Shown here: piece after piece, positions 18,832 to 42,212 of the stretch
How the letters are laid out: every line of letters starts with the position of its first letter
Position numbering within the stretch: position 1 is the first letter of the stretch
Assembly (NCBI GenBank): GCA_024224155.1
Contig: JAAENP010000005.1
Span: 1-64,000, forward strand
Direction of reading: 5' to 3'
Origin: a bacterium
GTDB lineage: Bacteria; Acidobacteriota; Thermoanaerobaculia; Multivoradales; JAHEKO01
DNA length: 64,000 nucleotides
The notes under the pieces: model-generated
Told to the model about the DNA's origin: nothing
The model's database searches: none
Seen by the model: only the letters and a program-made list of their open reading frames with translations
Position numbers and translations under genes: made by a program

Positions 18832-19688
18832 CCATCGCTCCCAGTACTCATGAGCATGTCATAAAGACGAATCAGTTCTTCCTCCGAGTGAAAGGCCAGG
18901 ATAAGTTTGCCACCCTTGGCGTGTCTTTTTATTTCAATTTTCGTTTGTAAATGTTTTGTCAAGCGTTCGGCCGCCGCCGCCGTGTCCGGATCGACCGTGG
19001 GCCGGGCTCGGCTTCGCTGGGAAGCCTCCTTCGGCCGGGTCGCGGCTTCGAGCTGACGCGCGTTGAGCCCCTCCTTGACCGCTCGCCGGGCCCAAAGGAT
19101 CCGATCTCGCGCCCTCGGCAAGCTGAGCAACGGACGCGCCTGGCCGGCGGTCAACTGCCCTCTCCGCAACATGCCCTGCACCTCGTCCGGCAGCCCGAGC
19201 AGTCGCAACCGGTTGGAAACCGCCGAGCGGCTCTTGCCCACCCTCTCGGCGATCTCTTCGTGCGACAGGCCGAATTCCCGCCTCAGCCGGTCAAACGCCT
19301 CCGCCTCCTCGATGCCATTGAGGTCGGAGCGCTGCATATTCTCTACGAGAGCCGCCTCCAGAAACTCTCGTTTCGAGGCCATGTCCCTCACCACGACCGC
19401 CACCCGCGACAAGCCGGCTTCGCGCGCAGCTCGCCAACGTCGCTCTCCGGCGACAATCGAGTACCCGCCCTTCGCTCGGGGCGTCACCAGAATCGGCTGA
19501 ATGAGACCCTGGGCACGAATCGACGCAGCCAGCTCGGCGAGCTCCTCGGGATCGAACTCAGCGCGAGGCTGATAGTCGTTCGGCACTAGGTCGTCGAGCG
19601 CGATCTCGGTTCGAGGCACCGAAGCAGCGGGCGCTTCCGAGAACAAAGCATCGAGACCGCGGCCCAGGCCGCTCTTCTTCGCCATCAT
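18828..19688 (-). CDS. parB: Chromosome partitioning protein ParB
   Basis: 286 residues. The N-terminus KKSGLGRGLDALF is the usual ParA-contact region; the CTP-binding ParB/Srx domain contains GLIQPILVTP and the GERRWRA motif followed by ENMQRSDLN; the helix-turn-helix is in GLSHEEIAERVGKSRSAVSNRLRLL; the C-terminal dimer domain ends the protein. ParB loads on parS and spreads as a CTP-dependent clamp. It overlaps parA (ATGA) and bactofilin (ATGA), so all are one leftward operon with rsmG. Confidence 0.96.
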   Translation of the reverse strand: MMAKKSGLGRGLDALFSEAPAASVPRTEIALDDLVPNDYQPRAEFDPEELAELAASIRAQGLIQPILVTPRAKGGYSIVAGERRWRAAREAGLSRVAVVVRDMASKREFLEAALVENMQRSDLNGIEEAEAFDRLRREFGLSHEEIAERVGKSRSAVSNRLRLLGLPDEVQGMLRRGQLTAGQARPLLSLPRARDRILWARRAVKEGLNARQLEAATRPKEASQRSRARPTVDPDTAAAAERLTKHLQTKIEIKRHAKGGKLILAFHSEEELIRLYDMLMSTGSDG

Positions 19689-39126: not shown

Positions 39127-39587
39127 GAGCGGGTCAATATGGCATACCCGAGGCATCTGTGCCCCGGGAGCCGTGGGCGTCGGATCAGGCGGGCGCTGGA
39201 TTCGCAGTCAAAGGGGTTACCGGGGGAGGTTCTGATGAGGTGGGTTTTTGTGGTTCTACCCCTGTGGAATAAGGGGAATTTGGCAGGTCTTTTGAGAATG
39301 GGTGAAAGACTAGCTTTCGATTGTAGGTAGGATTGATGTTGTGGGTGAACCTCCCCAATAACCGTCAAAAACTACTGTCATTTATCCCCAGCAGTATTCG
39401 TGCCAACTTGGGCGTACTGGCCCAAATACGCCTCAACAAACGGCTTTCCGGTCCCTCTTGGCGCCCAAGAAAACTGTGCTAATATCCCTCCTGCTCCGTT
39501 AAGGTAGGACCCTCGAGCGGCGCCTCAGTCACGCAGGTTTTCCACAATTCTTCCACAGTCTGTGGAAAACTTTGCGGTGGAGAATTA
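39127..39587. promoter_or_regulatory. oriC: Origin region left of dnaA with DnaA boxes
   Basis: A 461-bp gene-free stretch, AT-richer than the genes around it. Three DnaA-box-like 9-mers lie within 32 bp just before the dnaA ATG: TTTTCCACA (39538-39546), TCTTCCACA (39549-39557) and, inverted, TGTGGAAAA (39561-39569). Two more lie further left: TGTGGAATAA (39263-39272) and TTATCCCCA (39382-39390, one mismatch from TTATCCACA). These are consistent with autoregulation of dnaA and part of the replication origin. Confidence 0.65.
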
Positions 39588-40880
39588 ATGTCCAATTCCC
39601 TCTGGCTTCGTCTCCGAAACCACCTCCAAAACGAACTCGACCCCGAGGAATTTTCCACCTGGTTCCAGCCCCTTCGGTTGGGGCGCGAAGAAAGCGGTCG
39701 CGTCGTGCTGCTCGCGCCCAATCAGACATTCCTGCATACGCTCGAAGCAAGTTACCGGCCCGCGGTGGACCGAGCAATCGCCGGACTTGAGGACGAAACT
39801 TGTGAAGTCCTTTTCTCGGTCGAGGACAAGGCATCCTCAGTCAAGGCGCGAGCCCGCTCGCATTCGGAATCGCGCTTCAATCCTCGCTATGTCTTCGAGA
39901 CTTTCGTTGTCGGCAATTCCAACCAATTCGCCCACGCCGCGGCAAGAGCCGTCACCGAATCGCCCTTTCGAAGCTACAACCCGCTCTTTCTCTACGGAGG
40001 CGTCGGGCTCGGCAAGACCCATCTCCTGAACGCTATTGGTCACCGCCTCCAGGAACAGCACCCGGAGCTCCAGGTCATGTACCTGGCCGCGGAGCAGTTC
40101 GTAAACGATCTCATCAGCTCGCTCAGATTCAACCGCATGCCGTCGTTTCGTGAGCGCTACCGCAACATCGATATTCTGCTTGTCGACGACATTCAGTTTC
40201 TGGCCAACAAAGAACGCACGCAGGAAGAGTTCTTCCATACCTTCAACACTCTCTACACCGGCCAGAAGCAAATCATCCTCTCCTCGGATGCGCCACCACG
40301 CAATATCCCCGACCTCGAGGAGCGACTCCGGAGCCGATTCGAATGGGGCCTCATCGCCGACATTCAACCCCCTGATCTCGAAACCAAGATAGCCATCCTG
40401 CGCAAGAAGGCCGACACCCAGAAGCTGCACCTTCCGGACGAGGTGGCTCACTTCATAGCTCACCAGGTCCGTTCCAACATCCGCGAGTTGGAAGGCCTGC
40501 TCAATCGCGTGCTCGCCTTTGCGTCGCTCACCGGGCGGCCCCTTTCTCTCGAGGTGGCCAAGGAAACCCTGAAAGACATCCTTCCGGAAGATCCACGAGT
40601 TAACGCCAGTGACATCATCAAGACCGTAGCCCACCACTATGGGCTCAAGGTCGGTGAGATCAAGAGCCGCAAGAACTCGCAGCAAATCGTGTTTCCGCGC
40701 CAGGTTGCTATGTACTTGTGCAAGCAAATCACGGATCTCTCCTATCCGGAGATCGGGAAGCACTTCAACAACAAACACCACTCGACGGTCATGTACTCGG
40801 TGGAGAAGATAGATCGCTTGCGCTCCGAGGATCGCGAGCTCGGCCGTACCCTCGATCACCTGGCCCGCAAGTTTTCCTAG
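39588..40880 (+). CDS. dnaA: Chromosomal replication initiator DnaA
   Basis: 430 residues. Domain I at the N-terminus (LWLRLRNHLQNELDPEEFSTWFQPL), a short domain II, AAA+ domain III with YGGVGLGKTHLLNAIG (Walker A), LLVDDIQFLANKERTQEE (Walker B) and the Arg-finger region, and domain IV ending with the signature KHHSTVMYSVEKI. It binds the boxes upstream and opens the origin. It starts 18 bp after the last DnaA box, so autoregulation is likely. Confidence 0.97.
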   Translation: MSNSLWLRLRNHLQNELDPEEFSTWFQPLRLGREESGRVVLLAPNQTFLHTLEASYRPAVDRAIAGLEDETCEVLFSVEDKASSVKARARSHSESRFNPRYVFETFVVGNSNQFAHAAARAVTESPFRSYNPLFLYGGVGLGKTHLLNAIGHRLQEQHPELQVMYLAAEQFVNDLISSLRFNRMPSFRERYRNIDILLVDDIQFLANKERTQEEFFHTFNTLYTGQKQIILSSDAPPRNIPDLEERLRSRFEWGLIADIQPPDLETKIAILRKKADTQKLHLPDEVAHFIAHQVRSNIRELEGLLNRVLAFASLTGRPLSLEVAKETLKDILPEDPRVNASDIIKTVAHHYGLKVGEIKSRKNSQQIVFPRQVAMYLCKQITDLSYPEIGKHFNNKHHSTVMYSVEKIDRLRSEDRELGRTLDHLARKFS

Positions 40881-41114
40881 GACCACTCCTCCAACAGCCA
40901 CCTAGATGCTGAGGAAAACCTGCGGACCTTCCGCTGGCGGATTGATTTTGCGCAGATTCTCACAAGTTTTCGACAGGCCTTTCCGGAACCGCTTCCGCGC
41001 GCTGACCTGAGCGGCTTGAACAACTTGGAAGCTTTTTCCGTTTTTCGAGGGCCGCTTACTACTACTACTGTGTTATTTTTTCTCTTCCCTATCTAGTAGA
41101 AGAGGTAGAAAGAA
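40881..41114. promoter_or_regulatory. oriC: dnaA-dnaN intergenic region with DnaA-trio-like unwinding element
   Basis: At 41048-41055 a GC-rich GGGCCGC is followed by TTA-CTA-CTA-CTA-CTG (41056-41070), i.e. repeated 3'-GAT-5' trinucleotides on the complementary strand, and then the AT-rich TGTTATTTTTT. This GC-spacer, DnaA-trio, AT-rich order matches the basal unwinding system known from Bacillus. Only degenerate DnaA boxes (TTTTCGACA, TTCTCACA) were seen to its left. The probable dnaN ribosome site GAAGAGGTAGAAAG lies at the right end. Confidence 0.6.
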
Positions 41115-42212
41115 ATGGAAGTTCGAGTCAAACGATCCAGCTTGCTGAGCGAACTGATTCCAATGCAAGGAATCGTCGAGCGCCGAACGACCATTCCGGT
41201 CCTTTCGCACATCCTCCTGCGTGCGGCGGATGATCGACTTCACTTTGCCTCGACCGACCTGGACGTGTCGCTGACCTCGTCTTGCGAGGCTGAACTTTCG
41301 AGCACGGGCTCGATTGCGGTACAGGCGAGGAAGTTCCTGGAGATCATCCGGGCGGTTGGTGCCGAGGACGTGAATCTGAAGCTCGAAGACGAGAAGCGTC
41401 TCAGCATCGACGCCGGTCATTCCCACTTCAAGATCAACGGGTTGGCGGCCGAGGATTTTCCAACTCTGCCGGAGGTTGCGGACGATCAGGAGTTGACCAT
41501 TCCCTTCGAGCTTCTGAAGAAAGCGATCGGTCGCATTATCTTTGCCGTTTCGACCGAGGAATCTCGATTTCAGCTCAACGGTGCGTTGCTGAAGTTGAAT
41601 GACGATGGGGTCGAGTTGGTAGCGACCGACGGTCACCGGCTGGCGCTGATCGAGAATGATCTGCCGGGTTCGAGCGTCGCCGAAGGGGTTCTGGTTCCGC
41701 GCAAGGCTCTACATGAGCTCCAGCGTTTCGAAGAAGCCGGCGATCTGTCCTTCCGTAGGAGCGAGCACCACCTGTCGTTTCGACTGGGTAGCCGGGAATT
41801 GATCTGCCGAATCCTGGAAGGCACATTCCCGGACTACAACCGAGTGATCTCGAAGGAGAACGACAAGCAGGCGGTCTTTGACAAGAAAGCCCTGTCGCAG
41901 GCCGTACAGAGGGTGGCGCTGCTGACCGGGGACCGGGCGCGGGCGGTTCGACTCGAACTCGCCAGCGGCAACCTGGTGATCACCGCGGCCAATCCGGATC
42001 TGGGCGAGGCGATGGAGGAGTTGGCCTGTGACTACGAGGGCGAGGAGCTCAAGATCGGGATGAATCCGGACTACCTGGTTCACTTTCTTGCGGCGTTGGA
42101 CACCGACAAGGTCAGGCTCGATCTCAAGGATGAGAACACCCAGTGCATTGGCTATCCGGTCGACGGCGAGGACAAGCGATACCTCTGCGTCATCATGCCG
42201 ATGCGCATCTGA
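41115..42212 (+). CDS. dnaN: DNA polymerase III sliding clamp (beta subunit)
   Basis: 365 residues, full length. Typical beta-clamp elements: MQGIVERRTTIPVLSHILL near the N-terminus, VQARKFLEIIRAVG, GLAAEDFPTLPEV, and the ending YPVDGEDKRYLCVIMPMRI that forms part of the partner-binding cleft. It is a ring-shaped processivity factor. The same reading frame continues past its TGA into recF without another stop. Confidence 0.97.
   Translation: MEVRVKRSSLLSELIPMQGIVERRTTIPVLSHILLRAADDRLHFASTDLDVSLTSSCEAELSSTGSIAVQARKFLEIIRAVGAEDVNLKLEDEKRLSIDAGHSHFKINGLAAEDFPTLPEVADDQELTIPFELLKKAIGRIIFAVSTEESRFQLNGALLKLNDDGVELVATDGHRLALIENDLPGSSVAEGVLVPRKALHELQRFEEAGDLSFRRSEHHLSFRLGSRELICRILEGTFPDYNRVISKENDKQAVFDKKALSQAVQRVALLTGDRARAVRLELASGNLVITAANPDLGEAMEELACDYEGEELKIGMNPDYLVHFLAALDTDKVRLDLKDENTQCIGYPVDGEDKRYLCVIMPMRI

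Follow-up and report, generated by a model that had tools for sequence, protein, structure and literature searches.

Gene order and strand asymmetry at the locus

The genes dnaA and dnaN lie next to each other in the order mutY / dnaA-dnaN-recF-gyrB-gyrA, with mutY upstream on the opposite strand. They are located in a 64,000-nucleotide stretch of acidobacterial DNA, the window, which comprises positions 1-64000 of a 106,735-base contig from an assembly of 5.7 Mb in 576 contigs. Profile matches on the open reading frames of the window are above the model cut-offs for dnaA, dnaN, gyrB, gyrA and mutY, and below the cut-off for recF (147 vs 172, for the reading frame as listed). The following features are found around dnaA:

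39263-39271, reverse strand: TATTCCACA, weak DnaA-box-like 9-mer, one mismatch to TTTTCCACA
39382-39390, forward strand: TTATCCCCA, weak DnaA-box-like 9-mer, one mismatch to TTATCCACA
39477-39485, forward strand: TGCTAATAT, extended -10-like element of a putative dnaA promoter (pattern match), upstream of the box cluster
39538, forward strand: TTTTCCACA, DnaA box, exact
39549, forward strand: TCTTCCACA, DnaA box between the two copies of TTTTCCACA
39561, reverse strand: TTTTCCACA, DnaA box, exact
39538-39569: cluster of these three boxes (forward, forward, reverse) in the dnaA leader
39588-40880, forward strand: dnaA (TIGR00362, 539 bits vs a cut-off of 344)
40910-40918, reverse strand: TTTTCCTCA, weak DnaA box within CTGAGGAAAA.CTGCGGA, common to three genus members
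40967-40975, forward strand: TTTTCGACA, weak DnaA box; TTTCGACAG is common to three genus members
41034-41050, forward strand: degenerate trio-proximal box positions TTTTCCGTT (41034) and TTTTCGAGG (41042)
41049-41055, forward strand: GC-rich spacer GGGCCGC
41056-41070, reverse strand: five DnaA-trios, top strand TTACTACTACTACTG, bottom strand 3'-AAT GAT GAT GAT GAC-5'
41071-41079, forward strand: TGTTATTTT, extended -10-like element, possible dnaN promoter, abutting the trios and opening the AT-rich run
41115-42212, forward strand: dnaN (TIGR00663, 310 bits vs a cut-off of 138)

On this contig, one of the 576 in the assembly, the cumulative GC skew falls up to position 41259 and rises beyond it; other minima may exist elsewhere on the chromosome. 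To the left of this minimum 32 of 40 1-kb bins are negative and to the right 56 of 65 are positive, and the mean skew of the two arms is opposite (-0.043 vs +0.043). The skew switch point, which the sequence-only reading had named as a check on its proposal of an origin, therefore falls at the dnaA-dnaN locus, and at the level of the contig the strand asymmetry of a chromosomal oriC is present there. The lowest-GC 25-mers of the whole window (16% GC) are located far from the origin, at 18921-18950.

DnaA boxes on both sides of dnaA

The boxes at 39538 and 39561 are the only two exact copies of TTTTCCACA in the window. Box-like 9-mers with at most one mismatch to TTWTCCRCA, a class-like motif drawn up by the analyst from relatives, occur 24 times in the window, and nine of these begin at positions 39263 to 40967; one of the nine lies within dnaA. 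The boxes flank the gene, with four box-like 9-mers in the 300 nt upstream and three in the dnaA-dnaN gap. A box cluster just before dnaA had been proposed, and it is indeed found as TTTTCCACA, TCTTCCACA and TTTTCCACA at 39538-39569, with the weaker 9-mers at 39263 and 39382 in front. The proposed Bacillus-like split, with boxes on both sides of dnaA and the unwinding element ahead of dnaN, also holds. The leader cluster may be the upstream part of the origin, may serve dnaA self-control, or both.

In family f1, a head-to-head arrangement TTTTCC[AG]CA...TGTGGA is present 30-80 nt before dnaA in 13 of 17 loci, and a match to TGNTANNNT lies 97-140 nt before the dnaA start in all 17 loci listed. 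The f13 and f14 loci (L180, L194 and others) have 0.02 and 0.12 boxes per 100 nt upstream of dnaA vs 0.46-1.0 in f1-f11, and look monopartite because of this near absence. By eye, a reverse-strand rpmH-like gene seems to be present upstream of dnaA in these loci.

The trio tract in the window and its genus

DnaA-trios were reportedly introduced by a 2016 paper. In the dnaA-dnaN gap of the window, a GC-rich segment is followed by TTA-CTA-CTA-CTA-CTG and an AT-rich run, as had been claimed. The sequence TTA-CTA-CTA-CTA-CTG is unique on the contig. The GC content is 75% at 41045-41056 and 30% at 41071-41090, and the 25-mer with the lowest GC content (24%) in the region from 39.2 to 41.2 kb begins at 41056. 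Four consecutive [CT]TA triplets occur, with both strands considered, once in the window and once on the 106,735-base contig, and dinucleotide shuffling of the 234-base gap produced them in 2 of 20,000 cases. In the available text of PMC8287927, the trio consensus is 3'-GAT-5' and the pattern used for the basal unwinding system (BUS) is at least three trios 3'-NAN-5'; the window has five (AAT GAT GAT GAT GAC).

In two genomes of the same genus the gap has mostly diverged and four blocks persist, namely CTGAGGAAAA.CTGCGGA, TTTCGACAG...TTTCC, the trios together with TGnTATTTT directly next to them, and the stretch leading up to the dnaN start. The trios are kept in genus and family relatives, so the conservation of the CTA repeats, a further proposed check, came out positive. 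Together with the skew minimum at the locus, this conservation supports the reading of the segment as a GC spacer followed by DnaA-trios.

Trio tracts across the class

The dnaA-dnaN gap was compared among 143 loci of the host class (probably Thermoanaerobaculia), of which 135 had a dnaN that was found and eight were dropped for lack of one. One assembly, G011, contributed two loci (L007 and L049), and the duplicates L139, L140, L059-L061 and L226-L255 were excluded. Named comparison loci (L062-L138, n = 77) were reduced to 73 by dropping four with no dnaN or a gap shorter than 60 bases. Tracts were called as five triplets scored at positions 1 and 3, with the middle base ignored and box motifs barred; the thresholds of 7 and 8 were the analyst's choice. 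Four earlier callers, which ran into boxes or missed other spacings, had been replaced.

Tracts were called in 101 of 135 class loci at a score of at least 7 (null 12.2%) and in 64 of 135 at a score of at least 8 (shuffles 2.5%). The 34 loci below 7 are there partly for reasons of the caller, which still mis-sites some loci, and in f17 several dnaN starts appear to be set too far downstream, which gives weak rows. The same caller found a tract in 66 of the 73 named loci, mostly Bacillota, and the arrangement of box, box, spacer and CTA triplets is seen in many of these. In a strict, box-anchored reading, a 4-nt spacer performed best (37 of 135 loci at a score of at least 6), vs 3-27 loci at the 12 other box-trio offsets and 0.4% of shuffled sequence at the 4-nt offset. 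Box, spacer and trios therefore tend to share a register, as in the named Bacillota loci. Tracts are found in the same position in relatives down to approximately 45% DnaA identity.

Several loci stand apart. Those of genus g11 in family f3 (L047, L048, L051 and L052) share TGATTATAAAT(A/G)GTTTACAA and have a short, degenerate trio-like CTTCT(A/G)CGGTT(A/G)CTT in the gap, and the f3 gap has almost no boxes (0.09 per 100 nt); the g11 loci possibly represent a diverged origin. In L012, head-to-tail copies of a long GC-rich unit stand in place of dnaN directly after dnaA, at the contig end; this is perhaps an assembly artefact. G011 carries L007 and L049, two dnaA genes that are both long and differ from each other, and may be a mixed bin.

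Weak boxes beside the trios

Up to 16 bp away from the trios of the window, no 9-mer comes closer to TTATCCACA than four mismatches, which is the commonest value in 5,000 shuffles. Measured against TTWTCCRCA, TTTTCCGTT has two mismatches and a 13-bp spacer, and 8% of shuffles have two or fewer. Two loci of the same genus have three mismatches each to TTATCCACA near the trios, and in L004, from the same family, a perfect box precedes them by 13 bp. Among the 101 called class loci, mismatches to TTATCCACA number at most three in 86, at most two in 38 and at least four in 15, the window included, and 18.5% of shuffles of the gap of the window have three or fewer. It was thus correctly noted that strong boxes are missing beside the trios. 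This is not confined to the window: by this measure weak trio-proximal boxes are widespread among the class loci, with the window at the weak end.

In the available text of PMC8287927, only the upstream box is required in vitro in Bacillus subtilis, and in that of PMC6669920 distal boxes are thought to raise the local DnaA concentration by looping. For these reasons, the weak site of the window could still work.

Promoter-like elements and the trios

A dnaN promoter may have its -10 region in the AT-rich run. A sigma-70 scan found no promoter that scored higher than shuffles, nor one at the two proposed -10 elements, which are put forward from their conservation. An element matching TGNTANNNT is positioned between -6 and +24 relative to the tract end in called loci of f1 (11/17), f2 (2/2), f9 (3/4) and f13 (15/17), and it is found there in 0/15 loci of f14, 1/15 of f10 and 2/14 of f3 (shuffles 4.2%). 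Where element and trios abut, the DNA melted by RNA polymerase would lie next to that melted by DnaA. The promoter-like element of f10/f11 is strongly conserved at a near-fixed distance from dnaN, for example approximately 101 nt before it in L158.

The CTA repeats could accordingly be merely a spacer or the upstream part of a dnaN promoter with no role in unwinding, and the adjoining element in the window and many relatives is in favor of this. However, in f10/f11 the only TGNTANNNT match of the gap is upstream of the trios in 18 of 18 loci, as TG[CA]TATACT 98-116 nt before dnaN, and the tracts are nevertheless kept (11/18 at score 8). Likewise, all 15 f14 loci have a tract at score 7, and none of the 15 has such an element beside it. 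The promoter position thus changes independently of the trios, which speaks against these being promoter parts, and a triplet periodicity in register with the upstream box is no promoter trait. It is therefore improbable that the repeats have a promoter role alone.

The base-reading residue of DnaA and the spelling of the trios

The DnaA of the window keeps Asn187, Ile190, Arg202 and Glu228, and has Leu rather than Ile at position 193. The B. subtilis numbering was carried over via the DnaA of a Bacillus (L087), with a tetrapeptide taken as the anchor; residue types at the other named pocket positions agree with it. According to the accessible portion of PMC10721633, Asn187 reads the middle adenine of the trio through its amino group; with a middle cytosine the opening rate in vitro is similar, with guanine and thymine it is lower, and in vivo cytosine outperformed both. 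The search in PMC8287927, as far as its available text describes it, demanded a middle adenine, and deviant trios were merely suspected.

In class tracts with a score of at least 8, the middle bases A, C, G and T number 123, 127, 9 and 6 at loci with Asn, and 34, 0, 13 and 3 at loci with Thr, which form a single clade; shuffles give 94, 77, 93 and 71. Cytosine-centred trios, 3'-GCT-5', make up f13 almost wholly and f14 mostly, and the two families form one supported clade. Box-anchored calls were obtained for 12 of the 15 f14 loci, and all 12 have CGA (top strand) as their first trio; in most of these tracts the register is fixed by CTA triplets. The f13 tracts are nearly pure CGA/TGA, and their register depends on the box spacing and on in-frame CTA or TTA in a few members (L189, L216 and L218). 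The amine rule, in the part of PMC10721633 available, allows cytosine-centred trios such as those of f13 and f14.

Among the 18 f10/f11 rows with a dnaN, 14 have Thr, three Asn and one Ser. Their middle bases at score 7 are A 48, C 5, G 21 and T 6; the five cytosines come from the mis-sited L165 and L167, and none is left at score 8. Every one of the 80 named loci, which include three class members, has Asn, as do the rows of f1-f9 and f12-f16 (L021 was read separately). In f17, Lys is found in 4 of 14 rows with ordinary trios in view; in L222-L224 (genus g69), Lys stands at the base-reading position beside ordinary CTA/CTT trios.

A degenerate pattern for Thr187, which also fixes neighbouring residues and could miss lineages, matched 12 times over 396 genomes of the phylum. 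Five of these matches are f10/f11 DnaA proteins and the other seven lie in sequence without a dnaA match. A second search of the class yielded no further f10 genome.

Several loci do not follow a joint change of residue and middle base. L175 has Asn with guanine-centred trios and is a counter-example, and f11 has Thr with only adenine in the middle. L176 (Thr; CGA CTG CTT CCA CTA) has one cytosine-centred trio and is an exception outside the score-8 count; the trio site of L174 (Ser) is CTA CTG CTT CCA CTA. Both fall below the threshold because of mis-siting. Fisher values that ignore relatedness are approximately 1e-14 and 1e-15. A tree-aware test of Asn/Thr co-change, with L192 entered as G (in fact T) and L021 as a gap (in fact N), was not significant with at most five independent pairs and 17 of 106 rows non-Asn, and there is therefore no statistical support beyond one clade. 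The score-8 counts by residue given above use the corrected entries for these two loci. In named loci outside the class, the middles other than A are C 14, G 2 and T 13 at score 7, so a preference for cytosine is no general feature. In the gap of L092 (a Bacillota MAG), CGA CGA CTA CTA CGA was noted by eye beside a box, which places cytosine-centred trios outside the host phylum as well.

A tentative reading, given somewhat less than even odds, is that the trio code varies in the class and may co-evolve with DnaA, Asn going with A or C and the Thr clade departing mainly to G or T. If true, the trios and DnaA proteins of the relatives would be natural specificity variants of origin opening.

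The origin model

The locus is best read as the chromosomal replication origin, bipartite around dnaA as in Bacillus and with a BUS-type unwinding site (probability approximately 0.87). The anatomy of the locus, the rarity of the tract, its conservation, the skew switch and the pocket residues of DnaA all point to this. In the proposed model, DnaA would load on the leader cluster (39538-39569) and on the weaker boxes of the dnaA-dnaN gap, and would then reach the degenerate positions at 41034-41050, probably aided by a high local DnaA concentration via looping. An ATP-DnaA oligomer could spread from there across the GC spacer onto the bottom strand of the five trios (41056-41070), and this engagement would open the duplex into the AT-rich run. 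RNA polymerase at 41071-41079 might share the melted region.

The origin could also be located here and be opened elsewhere, for example in the dnaA leader, with the trios as a relic in the genus. The strongest boxes are in the leader and the trio-proximal ones are degenerate, as this would predict, yet few blocks of the gap are as well conserved in the genus as the trios, and the lowest-GC 25-mer of the region begins at them, which makes opening elsewhere quite unlikely. Trinucleotide repeats arise by slippage, but a chance repeat has a negligible likelihood given the 2 in 20,000 shuffles, the same tract in near relatives and tracts at the same place down to approximately 45% DnaA identity.

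Comparison with known unwinding systems

With a bipartite origin around dnaA as the preferred reading, the closest known system is the BUS of the B. subtilis oriC (incC), as described in the available parts of PMC6669920, PMC8287927 and PMC10721633. Both are located between dnaA and dnaN, and both have boxes followed by a GC spacer, 3'-GAT-5' trios and an AT-rich run, a second box cluster upstream of dnaA, and the DnaA pocket residues. Unlike in B. subtilis, the boxes next to the trios are degenerate in the window and an extended -10-like element abuts the trios; the trios number five, compared with six in PMC10721633.

In Gram-negative bacteria with a BUS (Helicobacter pylori, Synechococcus elongatus and Deinococcus radiodurans), trio-dependent opening by the cognate DnaA is described in the available text of PMC8287927. 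The proteins tested there include none from Acidobacteriota, a word that does not occur in the main text, and its survey of 2070 species is a supplementary table. The titles and abstract openings of the matches listed, a scope mostly outside subscription papers, mention neither the origin of this class nor natural cytosine-centred trios.

The locus is thus best taken as a chromosome origin of an ordinary kind, well supported and with an unwinding site of the BUS type, and it extends the BUS arrangement to an Acidobacteriota lineage. The larger value lies in its relatives, in which natural A-, C- and G-centred trio sets stand beside a DnaA with Asn or Thr. With these, the nucleobase-capture model could be tested by exchanging cognate partners instead of by artificial mutation.
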